This document shows, piece by piece, positions 4,767-62,885 of a stretch of DNA of 64,000 nt. Source of the DNA: Olsenella sp. An270 (lineage in GTDB: Bacteria; Actinomycetota; Coriobacteriia; Coriobacteriales; Atopobiaceae). Under the pieces are notes generated by a model, which saw only the letters and a program-made list of their open reading frames with translations, was not told where the DNA came from and did no database searches. Positions within the stretch are counted from its first letter, which is position 1. Every line of letters begins with the position of its first letter. The stretch covers positions 124,001 through 188,000 of the forward strand of contig NZ_NFJF01000002.1 of NCBI RefSeq assembly GCF_002159735.1, read 5' to 3'. A program made the translations under genes and the position numbers.

Positions 4767-4924
4767 CGAACGCGAATATTGTCGTCCGGTTACGCTCGCG
4801 CGCCGTCCGGCCTGCCCGTAGTACAATCACCCCCGCTGTGGCGTGCGCCGTCTACGTGCGCCGCGGCCATCCGGCAGGCGCCGCCCGTACGGCACGGGGC
4901 GGCAGGACGAGAAAGGCATTGCAG

Positions 4925-18003: not shown

Positions 18004-18224
18004 TCTAGGAAATCGAGAGGTTGGCATGGCGGCATCTGGGAATTGCCGAGCTTGTCTCGGCGCAGGGCCGGGATGAGCGCATCTGCGGAGAAAAACTCTA
18101 GGAAACAGGGGCCTTGTACCGCTGCAGTCTAGAAATTTGCGCCCTTGTCGCTCGCCACGGACGCCTGCTGCGACAAGGGCGCGTTTTCCTAGATCGCGTC
18201 ATGACAAGGTCGGCGATTCCTAGA
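18004..18224. repeat. 31-bp-period array of 22-bp units, locus 1
   Basis: Units follow TCTAGGAA-N6-CCCTTGTC. Direct copies start at 18097 and 18128; inverted copies start at 18172 and 18203. A decayed direct copy at 18004 keeps TCTAGGAA and sits exactly 93 bp (3 x 31) before 18097. The array fills the 403-bp space between the divergent flippase and PEP carboxylase genes; no gene is seen there. Confidence 0.85.
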
Positions 18225-26647: not shown

Positions 26648-27988
26648 ATGAGCAGCGAGAAAGACATCGACTTCGTCTTGCGCACCGTCGAGAAGCGCGA
26701 CATCCGCTTCGTGCAGCTGTGGTTCACGGACGTGCTGGGCAACCTCAAGTGCTTCGCCATCTCCCCGGAGGAGCTGGAGGAGGCCTTCGAGGAGGGCATC
26801 GGCTTCGACGGGTCCGCCGTCGACGGCTTTGCCTCGCTCGAGGAGTCGGACATGCTGGCGTTCCCGGACCCCGCCACCTTCGCCCTCCTGCCGTGGCGCC
26901 CCAAGGAGTCCGGCGTGGCGCGCGTCTTCTGCGACGTCCACACCCCGTCGCGCGAGCCCTTCGAGGGCGACCCGCGCCGCTGCCTGCGCAAGGTCTTCGC
27001 CCGCGCCGACGAGCAGGGCCTCGTGCCCAACGTGGGTCCCAAGATCGAGTACTTCTACTTCGACAACGACCTCGACCCCGTGCCGCTGGACACCGCCGGC
27101 TACTTTGACCTCACGCCGATGGACCGCGCCAACGACCTGCGCCGCCAGACCACGCTCACCCTCGAGAAGATGTCCATCCCGGTGCAGTACTCCTACCACG
27201 CCGCGGGCCCGTCCCAGAACGGCGTGGAGCTGCGCTTCACCGAGGCCGTGAGCTGCGCCGACAACATCATGACCGCGCGCCTGGTCATCAAGCAGGAGGC
27301 CGCCGGCCAGGGCATGTTCGCCTCGTTCATGCCCAAGCCCATCGCGAGCGCCCCGGGCTCGGCCATGTACCTCTACCAGTCGCTGCTCGACCACGACGGC
27401 GAGAACCTCTTCTGGGGCCCCAAGGAGCTCCACCCCGCGCACCTCTCGGACCTGGCGCAGCACTACGTCGCGGGCATCCTCAAGTACGCTCCGGAGTTCA
27501 CTCTGGTCACCAACCCCACGGTCAACTCCTACAAGCGCTTCGTCTCCACCGGCGAGGTCCCCACGCACGCCACCTGGGGCCGTAAGAACCGCTCCGCGCT
27601 CGTGCGCATCCCCACGCACAAGCCGGGCAAGCACATCGCCACGCGCATCGAGCTGCGCAGCCCCGACCCCACGGCCAACCCCTACCTGGCGCTCGCCGTG
27701 ACCATCGCGGCCGGCCTCAAGGGCATCGAGGAGGGCCTACCCATGCCGGAGGAGTCCACCTGCGACACCTTCGCCGCGCCCGACCGCGAGCTCGAGGCCA
27801 AGGGCATCCGTCGCCTGCCGCGCACGCTCGGCGAGGCCATCGACCGCTTTGAGTCCTCCGACCTCATGCGCGAGGTCCTCGGCGAGCACATCTTCACCTA
27901 CTTCGTGCGCGAGAAGCGCCGCGAGTGGGAGGAGTTCTGCACGTCCGTGACCGACTGGGAGCGTGAGCACTACTACGGCGGGGTCTAG
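26648..27988 (+). CDS. Glutamine synthetase type I-like, with altered active-site histidines
   Basis: A 446-residue GSI-fold protein: FDGSAVDGFASLEESDM at the N-terminal domain boundary, FMPKP, NRSALVRIP and NPYLALAVTIAAGLKGI. It lacks a clear adenylylation Tyr segment, as in the short GSI-alpha class. The usual GSGMHVHQS, whose histidines bind metal and ATP, reads GSAMYLYQS here (near residue 238), and GQHEID-type sequence reads SQNGVEL. It may still make glutamine or may ligate another amine to glutamate; the sequence alone cannot decide. Array locus 2 begins 7 bases after the stop. Confidence 0.75.
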   Translation: MSSEKDIDFVLRTVEKRDIRFVQLWFTDVLGNLKCFAISPEELEEAFEEGIGFDGSAVDGFASLEESDMLAFPDPATFALLPWRPKESGVARVFCDVHTPSREPFEGDPRRCLRKVFARADEQGLVPNVGPKIEYFYFDNDLDPVPLDTAGYFDLTPMDRANDLRRQTTLTLEKMSIPVQYSYHAAGPSQNGVELRFTEAVSCADNIMTARLVIKQEAAGQGMFASFMPKPIASAPGSAMYLYQSLLDHDGENLFWGPKELHPAHLSDLAQHYVAGILKYAPEFTLVTNPTVNSYKRFVSTGEVPTHATWGRKNRSALVRIPTHKPGKHIATRIELRSPDPTANPYLALAVTIAAGLKGIEEGLPMPEESTCDTFAAPDRELEAKGIRRLPRTLGEAIDRFESSDLMREVLGEHIFTYFVREKRREWEEFCTSVTDWEREHYYGGV

Positions 27989-27994
27989 GTTGCC

Positions 27995-28205
27995 CCTAGG
28001 AAAAGCCACCCTTGTCCGGAGGGCGTCTAGAAATCGCGGCCCTTGTCGCCTTTGGCTCTAGGAATCGCGGCCCTTGTCCTGCAAAGGCCGCGAAAAAACC
28101 CGCTTTGGGCGAGAAGAACGTGACAAGGCCCCGGATTCTTGGACGGCCGCAGGACAAACCCGCCGGTTCCTAGACGCGCTCATGACAAGGCCAGAGTTTT
28201 CTAGA
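27995..28205. repeat. 31-bp-period array of 22-bp units, locus 2
   Basis: Three direct units start at 27995, 28026 and 28057 and three inverted units at 28122, 28153 and 28184. Every step within each half is exactly 31 bp. The best unit reads TCTAGGAA-TCGCGG-CCCTTGTC. The array lies between the glutamine synthetase gene and the amino acid ABC operon, in a 432-bp space. Confidence 0.92.
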
Positions 28206-28211
28206 TCGCAT

Positions 28212-28246
28212 GCCGCGTCCTTCTCGCCGGGCGAGAAGGACGCGGC
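28212..28246. terminator. Perfect hairpin of two inverted uptake-like words
   Basis: GCCGCGTCCTTCTCGCC is followed after one base by its complement GGCGAGAAGGACGCGGC. The stem is 17 bp and perfect. It could terminate the glutamine synthetase transcript although no T run follows; inverted pairs of uptake words serve as terminators in Neisseria and Haemophilus. Confidence 0.5.
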
Positions 28247-28420: not shown

Positions 28421-29275
28421 ATGAAGAGCATGACCAGAAGGAACTTTCTGACCGTCGCGGGTGCGCTCGCGGGCACCGCCACGCTTGCCGGCTGCGGCGG
28501 GCAGACCGCCGAGCAGACCGACCAGGCTGCCGACGACGCCACCGACGACACCGCCGCGGACGACTCCGCCGACGGCGACCTCGGCCTCGTGACCGAGGGT
28601 TCCCTCACCTTTGCCGTCTCGCCCGACTACCCGCCCTTCGAGAACCTCGTGGACGGCGAGTACGTGGGCCTGGACATGGACCTCGGCCGTGCCGTGGCCG
28701 AGCAGCTCGGCCTCGAGTGCGTCTACACCAACATCGACTTCGACGGCATCGTCCCGGCCATCGTCGCCGGCGGCCAGGCCGACGCGGGCCTCTCGGGCAT
28801 CTCCATCACCCCCGACCGCGAGGACGAGGTCAACTTCACCACGCCCTACTACATCGACAACCAGGCCGTGGCCGTCCTCTCCTCCAACACCGACGTCACC
28901 GAGGAGAACGCCGCCGAGGTCCTCAACACCGCCGAGATGACCATCGCCGTCCAGAGCGGCTCGACGGGCGCCGACTTTGCCGCCGAGAACTTCCCCAACG
29001 CCGAGCAGCTCGCGTTCCCGCAGTTCACCGACGCCTTCGCCGCCGTCTCCGCCGGCCAGGCCAACGCCGTCTGCGGCAACCTCGCCGTCGTTGAGCAGAT
29101 GCTCGCCGGCGCCTACACCGACCAGCACGTCGTGCTCACCTCCGCCACCGGCGAGGAGTACGCCATCTGCGTCAACAAGGACAACCAGGCCCTGCTCGAC
29201 GCCATCAACGACGCCCTCGCCACGCTCCAGGAGGACGGCACGATCGACGAGCTCATCGCCGCCAACATGGGCTAA
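28421..29275 (+). CDS. Amino acid ABC transporter substrate-binding lipoprotein
   Basis: A 284-residue solute-binding protein. A twin-arginine-like lipoprotein signal (MTRRNFLTVAGALAGTATLAGC) is followed by an Ala/Asp/Thr-rich linker of about 35 residues and a PBP2 domain (GSLTFAVSPDYPPFENLVDGEYVGLDMDLGRAVAEQLG, FDGIVPAIVAGGQADAGLSG). It captures a polar amino acid outside the membrane for the permease and ATPase encoded just downstream. ATG 28421 follows GGGGGAAGG. Confidence 0.92.
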   Translation: MKSMTRRNFLTVAGALAGTATLAGCGGQTAEQTDQAADDATDDTAADDSADGDLGLVTEGSLTFAVSPDYPPFENLVDGEYVGLDMDLGRAVAEQLGLECVYTNIDFDGIVPAIVAGGQADAGLSGISITPDREDEVNFTTPYYIDNQAVAVLSSNTDVTEENAAEVLNTAEMTIAVQSGSTGADFAAENFPNAEQLAFPQFTDAFAAVSAGQANAVCGNLAVVEQMLAGAYTDQHVVLTSATGEEYAICVNKDNQALLDAINDALATLQEDGTIDELIAANMG

Positions 29276-32311: not shown

Positions 32312-32470
32312 TGCACAGACGGGGCGACTTGGCAGCGATTTCCCTGCCAAGTCGCCTGTTTTTTGCATTGGGCGAGAAGAACGCCCAGTTGAGGTTCTTC
32401 TCGCCCTGCCAAGTCGGCATCTTTTTACGCCGGCGGCTCCGGTTTCCTGCCAAGTCGGTAACTTTGTGCG
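32312..32470. repeat. CTGCCAAGTCG repeat array with embedded inverted uptake-word pair
   Basis: Direct units CTGCCAAGTCG-N4-TTTTT-rich start at 32344, 32406 and 32447; one inverted unit is at 32312-32335. The first two direct units are 62 bp apart, twice the 31-bp period of the other arrays. Between them GGGCGAGAAGAAC (32370) and GTTCTTCTCGCCC (32394) make a perfect 13-bp hairpin. This fills most of the 383-bp space before the protease gene. Confidence 0.75.
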
Positions 32471-34104: not shown

Positions 34105-34213
34105 TGTCCTGAAAATCGAGGCTGCGGCATGAAAATCGCCGAGAAGTCCTGAAAATCGAAGCTGTGGCAGGGTTTTGGGGTTATCCGCTGCCGTAGGTTC
34201 GATTTTCAGGACA
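34105..34213. repeat. TGTCCTGAAAATCG repeat array
   Basis: Two direct 25-bp units (34105 and 34145, TCCTGAAAATCGA-GCT-GGCA) are 40 bp apart and face one inverted unit at 34189-34213. The core GAAAATCG also occurs midway, giving 34111, 34131 and 34151, a 20-bp period. It lies in the 305-bp space before the DUF2130 gene. Confidence 0.75.
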
Positions 34214-57290: not shown

Positions 57291-57299
57291 ACCCACATC

Positions 57300-57459
57300 G
57301 ATAGAGGAGCGGACACGAAGGGTCCCGGGGGAGCCGGCGGGCGCAGATCCCGGGGCGAGGCGAGGTCCGCCGAACTGCCGAGCCGGGCGCGGCGAGGTGG
57401 TGGGCTCGCGGGAAAGACCCGCGGGACTGTCTGCGAGAAGAGCTCGCAGGGGCGCTATC
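57300..57459 (+). ncRNA. Lysine riboswitch (L box)
   Basis: The closing stem GATAGAGG (57300) pairs with the GCGCTATC end (57459), as in the lysC L box. Conserved internal blocks are present: GGTCCGCCGAAC (compare GTCGCCGAAG) and ACTGTCTGCGAGA before GGGGCGCTATC. Downstream CTCGGG/CCCGAG (about 57483/57502) lies just before the GAGAGG ribosome site of lysA and no T run is seen. Control is therefore probably at translation: lysine binding would hide the ribosome site. Confidence 0.85.
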
Positions 57460-57521
57460 CTTTGCCGCGGACGAACGCTCCGCTCGGGGGTCGCGAACCT
57501 GCCCGAGAGGCGAGAGGTGCC

Positions 57522-62625: not shown

Positions 62626-62846
62626 TCTAGGAATTGACGTTCTTGTCGGCGGGGAATCTAGGAAAAAGCGGGGTTGTCCTCTGGTTGGCAGCGGGACGAG
62701 GCTTTTGTGCGTCGGAGGGCCCCTGTTTTGGTACAAGGGCGGGAAATCCTAGAAGTTCGGGCGACAAGGGCGGCGATTTTAGGAAGCGCGTAGGACAAGG
62801 CCCTCGGTTTCTAGAAGCCGTCCGGACAAGGGCGGCGATTCCCGGG
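62626..62846. repeat. 31-bp-period array of 22-bp units, locus 3
   Basis: Two direct units start at 62626 and 62657 and four inverted units at 62732, 62763, 62794 and 62825. Every step is 31 bp. The array fills the space between the convergent fucO and holin-like genes. Confidence 0.9.
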
Positions 62847-62885
62847 CGACAGGGTGCCCGCGCGGGCGAGAAGGACGACCTCCCG

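Follow-up and report, generated by a model that had tools for sequence, protein, structure and literature searches.

Phased, mirror-symmetric intergenic repeat arrays in Thermophilibacter and the nuclease-like protein family proposed to dock on them

The window analysed here, a stretch of 64 kb, carries an intergenic array of 22-bp units belonging to a family with a period of 31 bp (fam1) that is dispersed through the genome. Each array is probably a site on which one cognate protein, from a Coriobacteriales family not yet characterised, docks cooperatively, with binding inferred. In the genome of the window (G000, 2.01 Mb; GTDB genus Thermophilibacter, Coriobacteriales) this protein would be P0001, a 362-aa protein whose gene lies outside the window (G000:C1:127509-128600) between two fam1 arrays. 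P0001 appears to be the reader of the fam1 arrays, because protein subfamily and array family occur one-to-one and the gene is found between its own arrays; its binding is inferred from this association and from evolution. No published description of the arrays or of the protein was found in the literature.

The window array has six units, three direct and then three inverted, matching TCTAGGAA-N6-CCCTTGTC, where 0.004 are expected per 400 bp by chance (Table 1). The coordinates and 31-bp steps that the preliminary description gave for the six units were exact on re-examination, with 0-3 mismatches in each. In the whole window 16 fam1 units were seen, against 0.20 expected by chance. The + to - distance of the window array is 65 bp rather than the usual 44+31k, ca. 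two helical turns above 44, and a 64-65 bp offset also recurs in arrays of related species. Judged from their translations, the upstream neighbour is taken to be the glutamine synthetase gene (glnA) and the downstream neighbour is presumably the gene for an amino-acid ABC transporter substrate-binding protein. The second fam1 array of the window has a degenerate further unit near 18004, extending it to 18004..18224, and is missing at the equivalent place in G025, G004 and G006.

Table 1. Arrays of the window and the neighbours of the array at glnA (positions are those of the window)
Feature	Position	Strand	Remarks
glnA (presumed), upstream neighbour	26648..27988	+	stop 7 bp ahead of window array
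Unit 1, CCTAGGAAAAGCCACCCTTGTC	27995..28016	+	1 mismatch
Unit 2, TCTAGAAATCGCGGCCCTTGTC	28026..28047	+	1 mismatch; step 31
Unit 3, TCTAGGAATCGCGGCCCTTGTC	28057..28078	+	0 mismatches; step 31
Array centre, 43 bp	28079..28121		+ to - distance 65
Inverted unit 4	28122..28143	-	3 mismatches
Inverted unit 5	28153..28174	-	3 mismatches; step 31
Inverted unit 6	28184..28205	-	2 mismatches; step 31
Downstream neighbour of window array	28421..29275	+	identity from translation
Second fam1 array	18035-18224 (+ 18035, 18097, 18128; - 18172, 18203)		divergent intergenic region
Third fam1 array	62626..62846 (+ 62626, 62657; - 62732, 62794, 62825)		between convergent genes
Second-family array, GTCCTGAAAATCGNNGCTGCGGCAC	34106..34212 (+ 34106, 34146; - 34188-34212)		step 40
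Third-family array, CGACTTGGCAG	32325..32457 (+ 32325; - 32344, 32406, 32447)		dyad 19, steps 62 and 41

A 12-mer, GGCGAGAAGRAC, occurs 20 times in the window (0.04 expected), at sites that include 28108-28119, 28217-28241, 32371-32405 and 62865-62876. It is found within and between genes and also in other members of the genus, and several array centres contain it; it looks like a genome-wide signal, e.g. a DNA-uptake sequence. Right after the window array, at 28212-28246, it makes up a perfect 17-bp inverted repeat with a 1-bp loop and without a T-run. The Rfam-type RNA matches in the window are a lysine riboswitch and aspS, at 57294-57465 and 4837-4917.

Ca. 296 fam1 units were found in the G000 genome at no more than 3 mismatches, compared to 5 for the reversed control pattern. 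At least 40 arrays of two or more units are present in the G000 stretches that were fetched, from which array contexts were taken (not every array was examined), and none is inside a gene, with genes called by codon usage in this analysis. Contigs C1, C7 and C9 end inside or beside arrays, and the true number may therefore be higher. Forty arrays were classified by setting – 22 are tandem, 9 convergent, 5 divergent, and 4 at contig edges – and arrays are present in 27% of the convergent intergenic regions, in 18% of the tandem ones and in 17% of the divergent ones. They are strictly intergenic, near stop codons and away from start codons. A terminator function, judged by gene orientation, was rejected since there is no clear orientation preference.

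The layout is constant: 2-6 direct units, a fixed 22-bp centre, and 2-6 inverted units, with 44 bp from + start to - start, or 44+31k where inner units have decayed. Steps between same-orientation units, 357 in all at loci from four species, are exact multiples of 31 bp in 349 cases; all 8 exceptions differ by -1, +1 or +10 bp. The centres match 44+31k in 73 of 86 cases; 12 of the 13 exceptions are +/-1 or +/-10-11 bp, and the remaining one is -12. Non-array intergenic DNA differs between G000 and G014 by 0.196 substitutions and ca. 0.046 indels per bp, and at this indel rate unconstrained 31-bp steps should rarely survive. The array geometry is under constraint. A lack of preferred spacing among genome-wide copies had been named as a finding that would refute the proposed single-protein reading of the array; the 31-bp preference is present.

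The units are also conserved unevenly. Between orthologous arrays, identity is 82% in the half-sites, 63% in the N6 and 54% in the gaps, which bears out the claim that the 9-bp gaps are not conserved. Mirror units are no more similar to each other than non-mirror units (over the whole unit, the N6 or the gaps), with no mirror covariation, and arm lengths are often unequal within an array. Orthologous arrays differ in unit number, their length changing by whole units. Related gaps were found within arrays; between different arrays gap identity is at chance level except in one related pair, and no full-length sequence is common to them. The innermost units are distinct: A is at position 22 in 26 of 62, versus 6 of 195 other units (p=2e-13), and CG directly follows the unit. 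Because half-sites are conserved while the gaps and N6 are not, and mirror covariation is absent, the pattern indicates protein recognition of DNA and not an RNA hairpin or a MITE. The preliminary description had proposed that a single protein reads an asymmetric 22-bp site and builds up along one face of the DNA. This gains support from the exact spacing across unconserved gaps, from deviations that amount to +/-1 bp or to one turn of the helix, and from purifying selection on half-sites without mirror covariation. Alignment of the arrays as a decayed transposon end, which would have counted against it, was not obtained, as the arrays do not align mutually.

Orthologs of P0001 at 76-82% identity are found only in G014, G023 and G003, the other three fam1-rich species, and fam1 arrays lie on both sides of the P0001-type gene in all four. 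A G001 protein 43% identical to P0001 adjoins a different array. The P0001-type gene occupies one locus in nine species, adjoining a DUF308-like gene, with an ABC transporter on the other side confirmed in eight of the nine. Four species have fam1 arrays at this locus, G004 has fam2 (41 bp), and G028 and G030 have GGTACACCGG-type arrays (42 bp). The protein family has 5-14 matches in each of the 31 genus genomes and members in 162 of 199 order genomes, array-bracketed in some other genera too. There is a flanking array at 24 of 32 homolog loci versus 25 of 106 control genes (p=3e-7), though for only 8 of the 32 did the automatic detector place an array on each side; both array detection and the control gene sets are heuristic. 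No copy of the P0001-type gene was found in plasmid or phage collections, and with one locus in nine species it is not visibly mobile. The fixed locus argues against recent mobility.

Searches with P0001 of Pfam, NCBIfam, PADLOC and PHROGs gave no match, and a PDB sequence search gave nothing usable; PF18741 (restriction-endonuclease-like) matched weakly in 6 of 30 relatives. Confident AlphaFold models (whole protein pLDDT 88.7, N-terminal domain 92.5) predict an AbiEi-antitoxin-like domain joined to an I-Bth0305I/Vsr-like nuclease domain, with cleavage untested. In these models, residues 178-299 resemble the I-Bth0305I catalytic domain (3r3p; Z 9.8, 2.6 A, 95 of 98 residues aligned), and residues 1-173 resemble AbiEi 67-195 (6y8q; Z 8.6), with Rv2827c (1zel) second at Z 5.8. 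The AbiEi and Rv2827c ranks come from re-alignment of Foldseek candidates with weak E-values, and because the Foldseek E-values alone are not significant, the domain matches are statements about fold only. The AbiEi match covers the AbiEi C-terminal domain and not the DNA-recognising winged helix; PF13338 (the AbiEi_4 winged helix) had no match in P0001, its relatives, or the whole G000 genome. E181, D225 and H249 are invariant in 49 of 49 homologs and D258 is present in 43 of 49; these residues are inferred to be equivalent to those of I-Bth0305I. Residues 31-90 are a candidate for specificity because they diverge fastest between same-locus orthologs that have different arrays.

Among the 31 genus genomes searched, only G000, G003, G014 and G023 are rich in fam1. 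Thermophilibacter provencensis (G022) has two fam1 arrays, flanking a PTS operon, and no convincing fam1 doublet was found elsewhere among 140 genomes searched in the family. An array search of phage, plasmid and viral collections gave no match in any. Many fam1 arrays are at addresses shared among the four rich species, and some addresses are empty in relatives. In further relatives, such addresses are occupied by different array families; at the glnA address there are GTCCCGGAATCG-type units in G025 and G004, and GGTTGTGCGCAC units in G001 and G027. Periodic arrays of direct plus inverted units turned up de novo in every genus member scanned; periods near 31, 40-42 and 62 bp are enriched among them. 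The phylogeny within the array-bearing clade is unresolved.

The segment between the two T. provencensis arrays (L070 6389-13492, PTS/SIS/GntR) matches G000:C9 and was probably acquired horizontally. A binder encoded on this flanked island was considered and rejected, as the two arrays, the only ones in T. provencensis, bracket a PTS operon that is conserved in G000. A 3.8-kb contig filed under uncultured Collinsella (L095) has a fam1 array with flanks 94-95% identical to G000, and is probably misbinned.

Paralogs and diverged orthologs of P0001 are bracketed by other array families (periods of 30, 40, 41 and 42 bp), likewise dispersed, and two of them are represented in the window. The GTCCTGAAAATCGNNGCTGCGGCAC family of 34106..34212 brackets a paralog gene at G000:C9:17569-18660, and the arrays bracketing the second G000 paralog are of the GTCCTGAAAATCG family, which includes this window array and is dispersed in G000, G006, G024, G013, G012 and G028. 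The second paralog is bracketed by fam10 (40-41 bp) in G000, G006 and G024, and every genome with an ortholog of it at 70% identity or more (G000, G024, G006, G013, G028) carries fam10; G012, a fragmented assembly, has fam10 units without a detected 70% ortholog. The array at 32325..32457 has the dyad and steps of the arrays that bracket a G003 paralog. G004 and G025 have fam2 at dispersed sites, G006 has ten of its units, and other genomes have little of it. G025 has ca. 100 fam2 units, and no close ortholog of the fam2-bracketed G004 protein is among its matches; it is possibly a natural reader-loss strain. Since G025 keeps fam2 units and G022 keeps fam1 arrays without a close ortholog, arrays can outlast their reader for some time.

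In the mechanism proposed, one P0001 monomer would bind each asymmetric unit, its AbiEi-like N-terminal domain and its Vsr/I-Bth0305I-like C-terminal domain contacting the two half-sites. Monomers are inferred to sit every three helical turns, forming a row on one DNA face, and two such rows would come together at the dyad, the place where special bases mark the innermost units. AbiEi and Rv2827c are known to bind as monomers to asymmetric 23-bp inverted repeats near their own genes (PMC7319586), and for I-Bth0305I, dimerisation on a target of almost 60 bp has been described (PMC3943268). The central module of the arrays is 22+22+22 bp (66 bp: unit, 22 bp, inverted unit). The arrays beside the P0001 gene probably autoregulate it, and those at dozens of other intergenic sites would be standing nucleoprotein clusters that dock and control the nuclease-like protein. 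The benefit to the cell is unknown; the leading guess is of a vertically inherited system with a homing endonuclease as ancestor, where docking would keep the nuclease in check and label intergenic DNA. It counts against docking that the gene-side association could come from common descent of gene and arrays as a unit, with no binding involved, and that the conservation of the nuclease residues is difficult to reconcile with docking alone on at least 40 intact sites.

Those residues also speak for a rather unlikely alternative, selfish recombination or homing, in which an EDxHD nuclease nicks or cuts the dyad, repair from other arrays spreads, lengthens and shortens arrays, and the gene persists by drive. 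The invariant active-site-like E, D and H, the special bases at the dyad, the local duplication of 31-bp steps with changes in unit number between orthologs, and a gene bracketed by its own sites would all fit, as would the fold match to a homing endonuclease whose family dimerises on nearly 60 bp (PMC3943268). However, the gene is at a single locus in nine species and absent from the plasmid and phage collections, and routine cutting is hard to reconcile with at least 40 intact sites in each genome. Recent copying between arrays is likewise not seen, because gap and centre sequences are not shared beyond the one related pair. Somewhat less probable again is a nucleoid or insulator role without nuclease activity, with phased filaments serving as roadblocks or marking the boundaries of neighbouring transcription units or of chromosome domains. 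Strict intergenic placement close to stop codons and far from start codons suits such boundaries, as do the strong spacing constraint and symmetric arms facing both ways, but orientation preference is not clear (the 27%, 18% and 17% given above), array families are lineage-specific with some positions empty in relatives, and the nuclease residues are retained.

Two further readings have very little in their favour. If the inverted arms formed a long transcribed hairpin for termination or stability, their global inversion would be explained, and a role in transcription termination has been suggested for BIMEs (PMC2817692); the arrays have no Rfam match, however, arms are often unequal, and mirror units lack the extra similarity that pairing arms would be expected to have. 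An origin as MITEs or decayed transposon ends is no better placed. Some loci are clean empty sites in relatives, and multi-site transposon ends exist in other systems, but here only the units are common to the arrays, with gaps, centre and flanks all different, and the geometry is kept in vertically inherited copies.

Among known systems, the layout of gene and dispersed arrays is closest to that of REP/RAYT, in which the protein gene lies between inverted repeats, repeats are dispersed intergenically in large numbers and sometimes regularly spaced, and repeat type tracks protein type (PMC2817692). Similarly, the gene is bracketed by inverted-orientation repeats in G000, G014, G023 and G003, and there are more than 100 dispersed intergenic copies (the ca. 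296 fam1 units). Unlike RAYT, P0001 is not a Y1 (HUH) transposase – it has no Pfam match and its fold matches lie elsewhere. REP units are palindromic stem-loops with a GT(A/G)G head, whereas the units here are asymmetric, of 22-27 bp (best self-complementarity of the fam1 consensus 8 of 22 matches), and stand first in direct and then in inverted orientation, at periods of about three or four turns of the helix. Palindromes similar to the REP sequences of RAYT systems, CAAAAGGGGACAGACCCC / AAAGGGGACAGGCAC, were seen in L162, L166 and L165 (G001) and in L070 and L257 (G022).

AbiEi and Rv2827c, regulators of type IV toxin-antitoxin systems, share with P0001 the predicted fold of its N-terminal domain, that of the AbiEi C-terminal domain. 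P0001 differs in lacking the AbiEi winged helix (PF13338), in its added nuclease-like domain, in its dozens of sites per genome, and in having a DUF308-like gene and an ABC transporter as neighbours instead of an adjacent AbiEii nucleotidyltransferase toxin. Orthodox AbiEi_4 regulators were rejected as the reader, being absent from G000 and G023. With I-Bth0305I and Vsr (EDxHD) the likeness is in the predicted C-terminal fold and the conserved E, D and H; unlike an EDxHD homing endonuclease, P0001 is chromosomal, at a fixed locus in nine species, and bracketed by intact sites. MITEs and CRISPR-like arrays are also intergenic repeats, with a constant repeat and variable spacer lengths, but here there is no common full-length sequence, the arms are inverted around a centre, and unit sequences vary. 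The transposase and the palindromic repeat that define REP/RAYT are absent, the system is not an AbiEi one, and homing mobility is unsupported; REP/RAYT is a known analogue in layout.

The broadest reading is tentative, falling a little short of even likelihood: that AbiEi/homing-endonuclease hybrids, Coriobacteriales-wide, vertically inherited and several per genome, each build and read private phased mirror-symmetric arrays, with specificity and dozens of sites changing together between species, as a new class of nucleoprotein marking system that acts genome-wide. The association would give a conspicuous unexplained repeat class a function-bearing partner, and the same link would serve a multi-copy protein family without a curated Pfam, NCBIfam or PADLOC assignment. 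Several natural protein/site pairs with fixed loci and different specificities offer a way to read the evolution of an asymmetric recognition code and to see how a nuclease fold can sit on at least 40 chromosomal sites. The system also lends itself directly to testing why cognate protein/dispersed-repeat systems, of which REP/RAYT is an example, are retained by bacteria.
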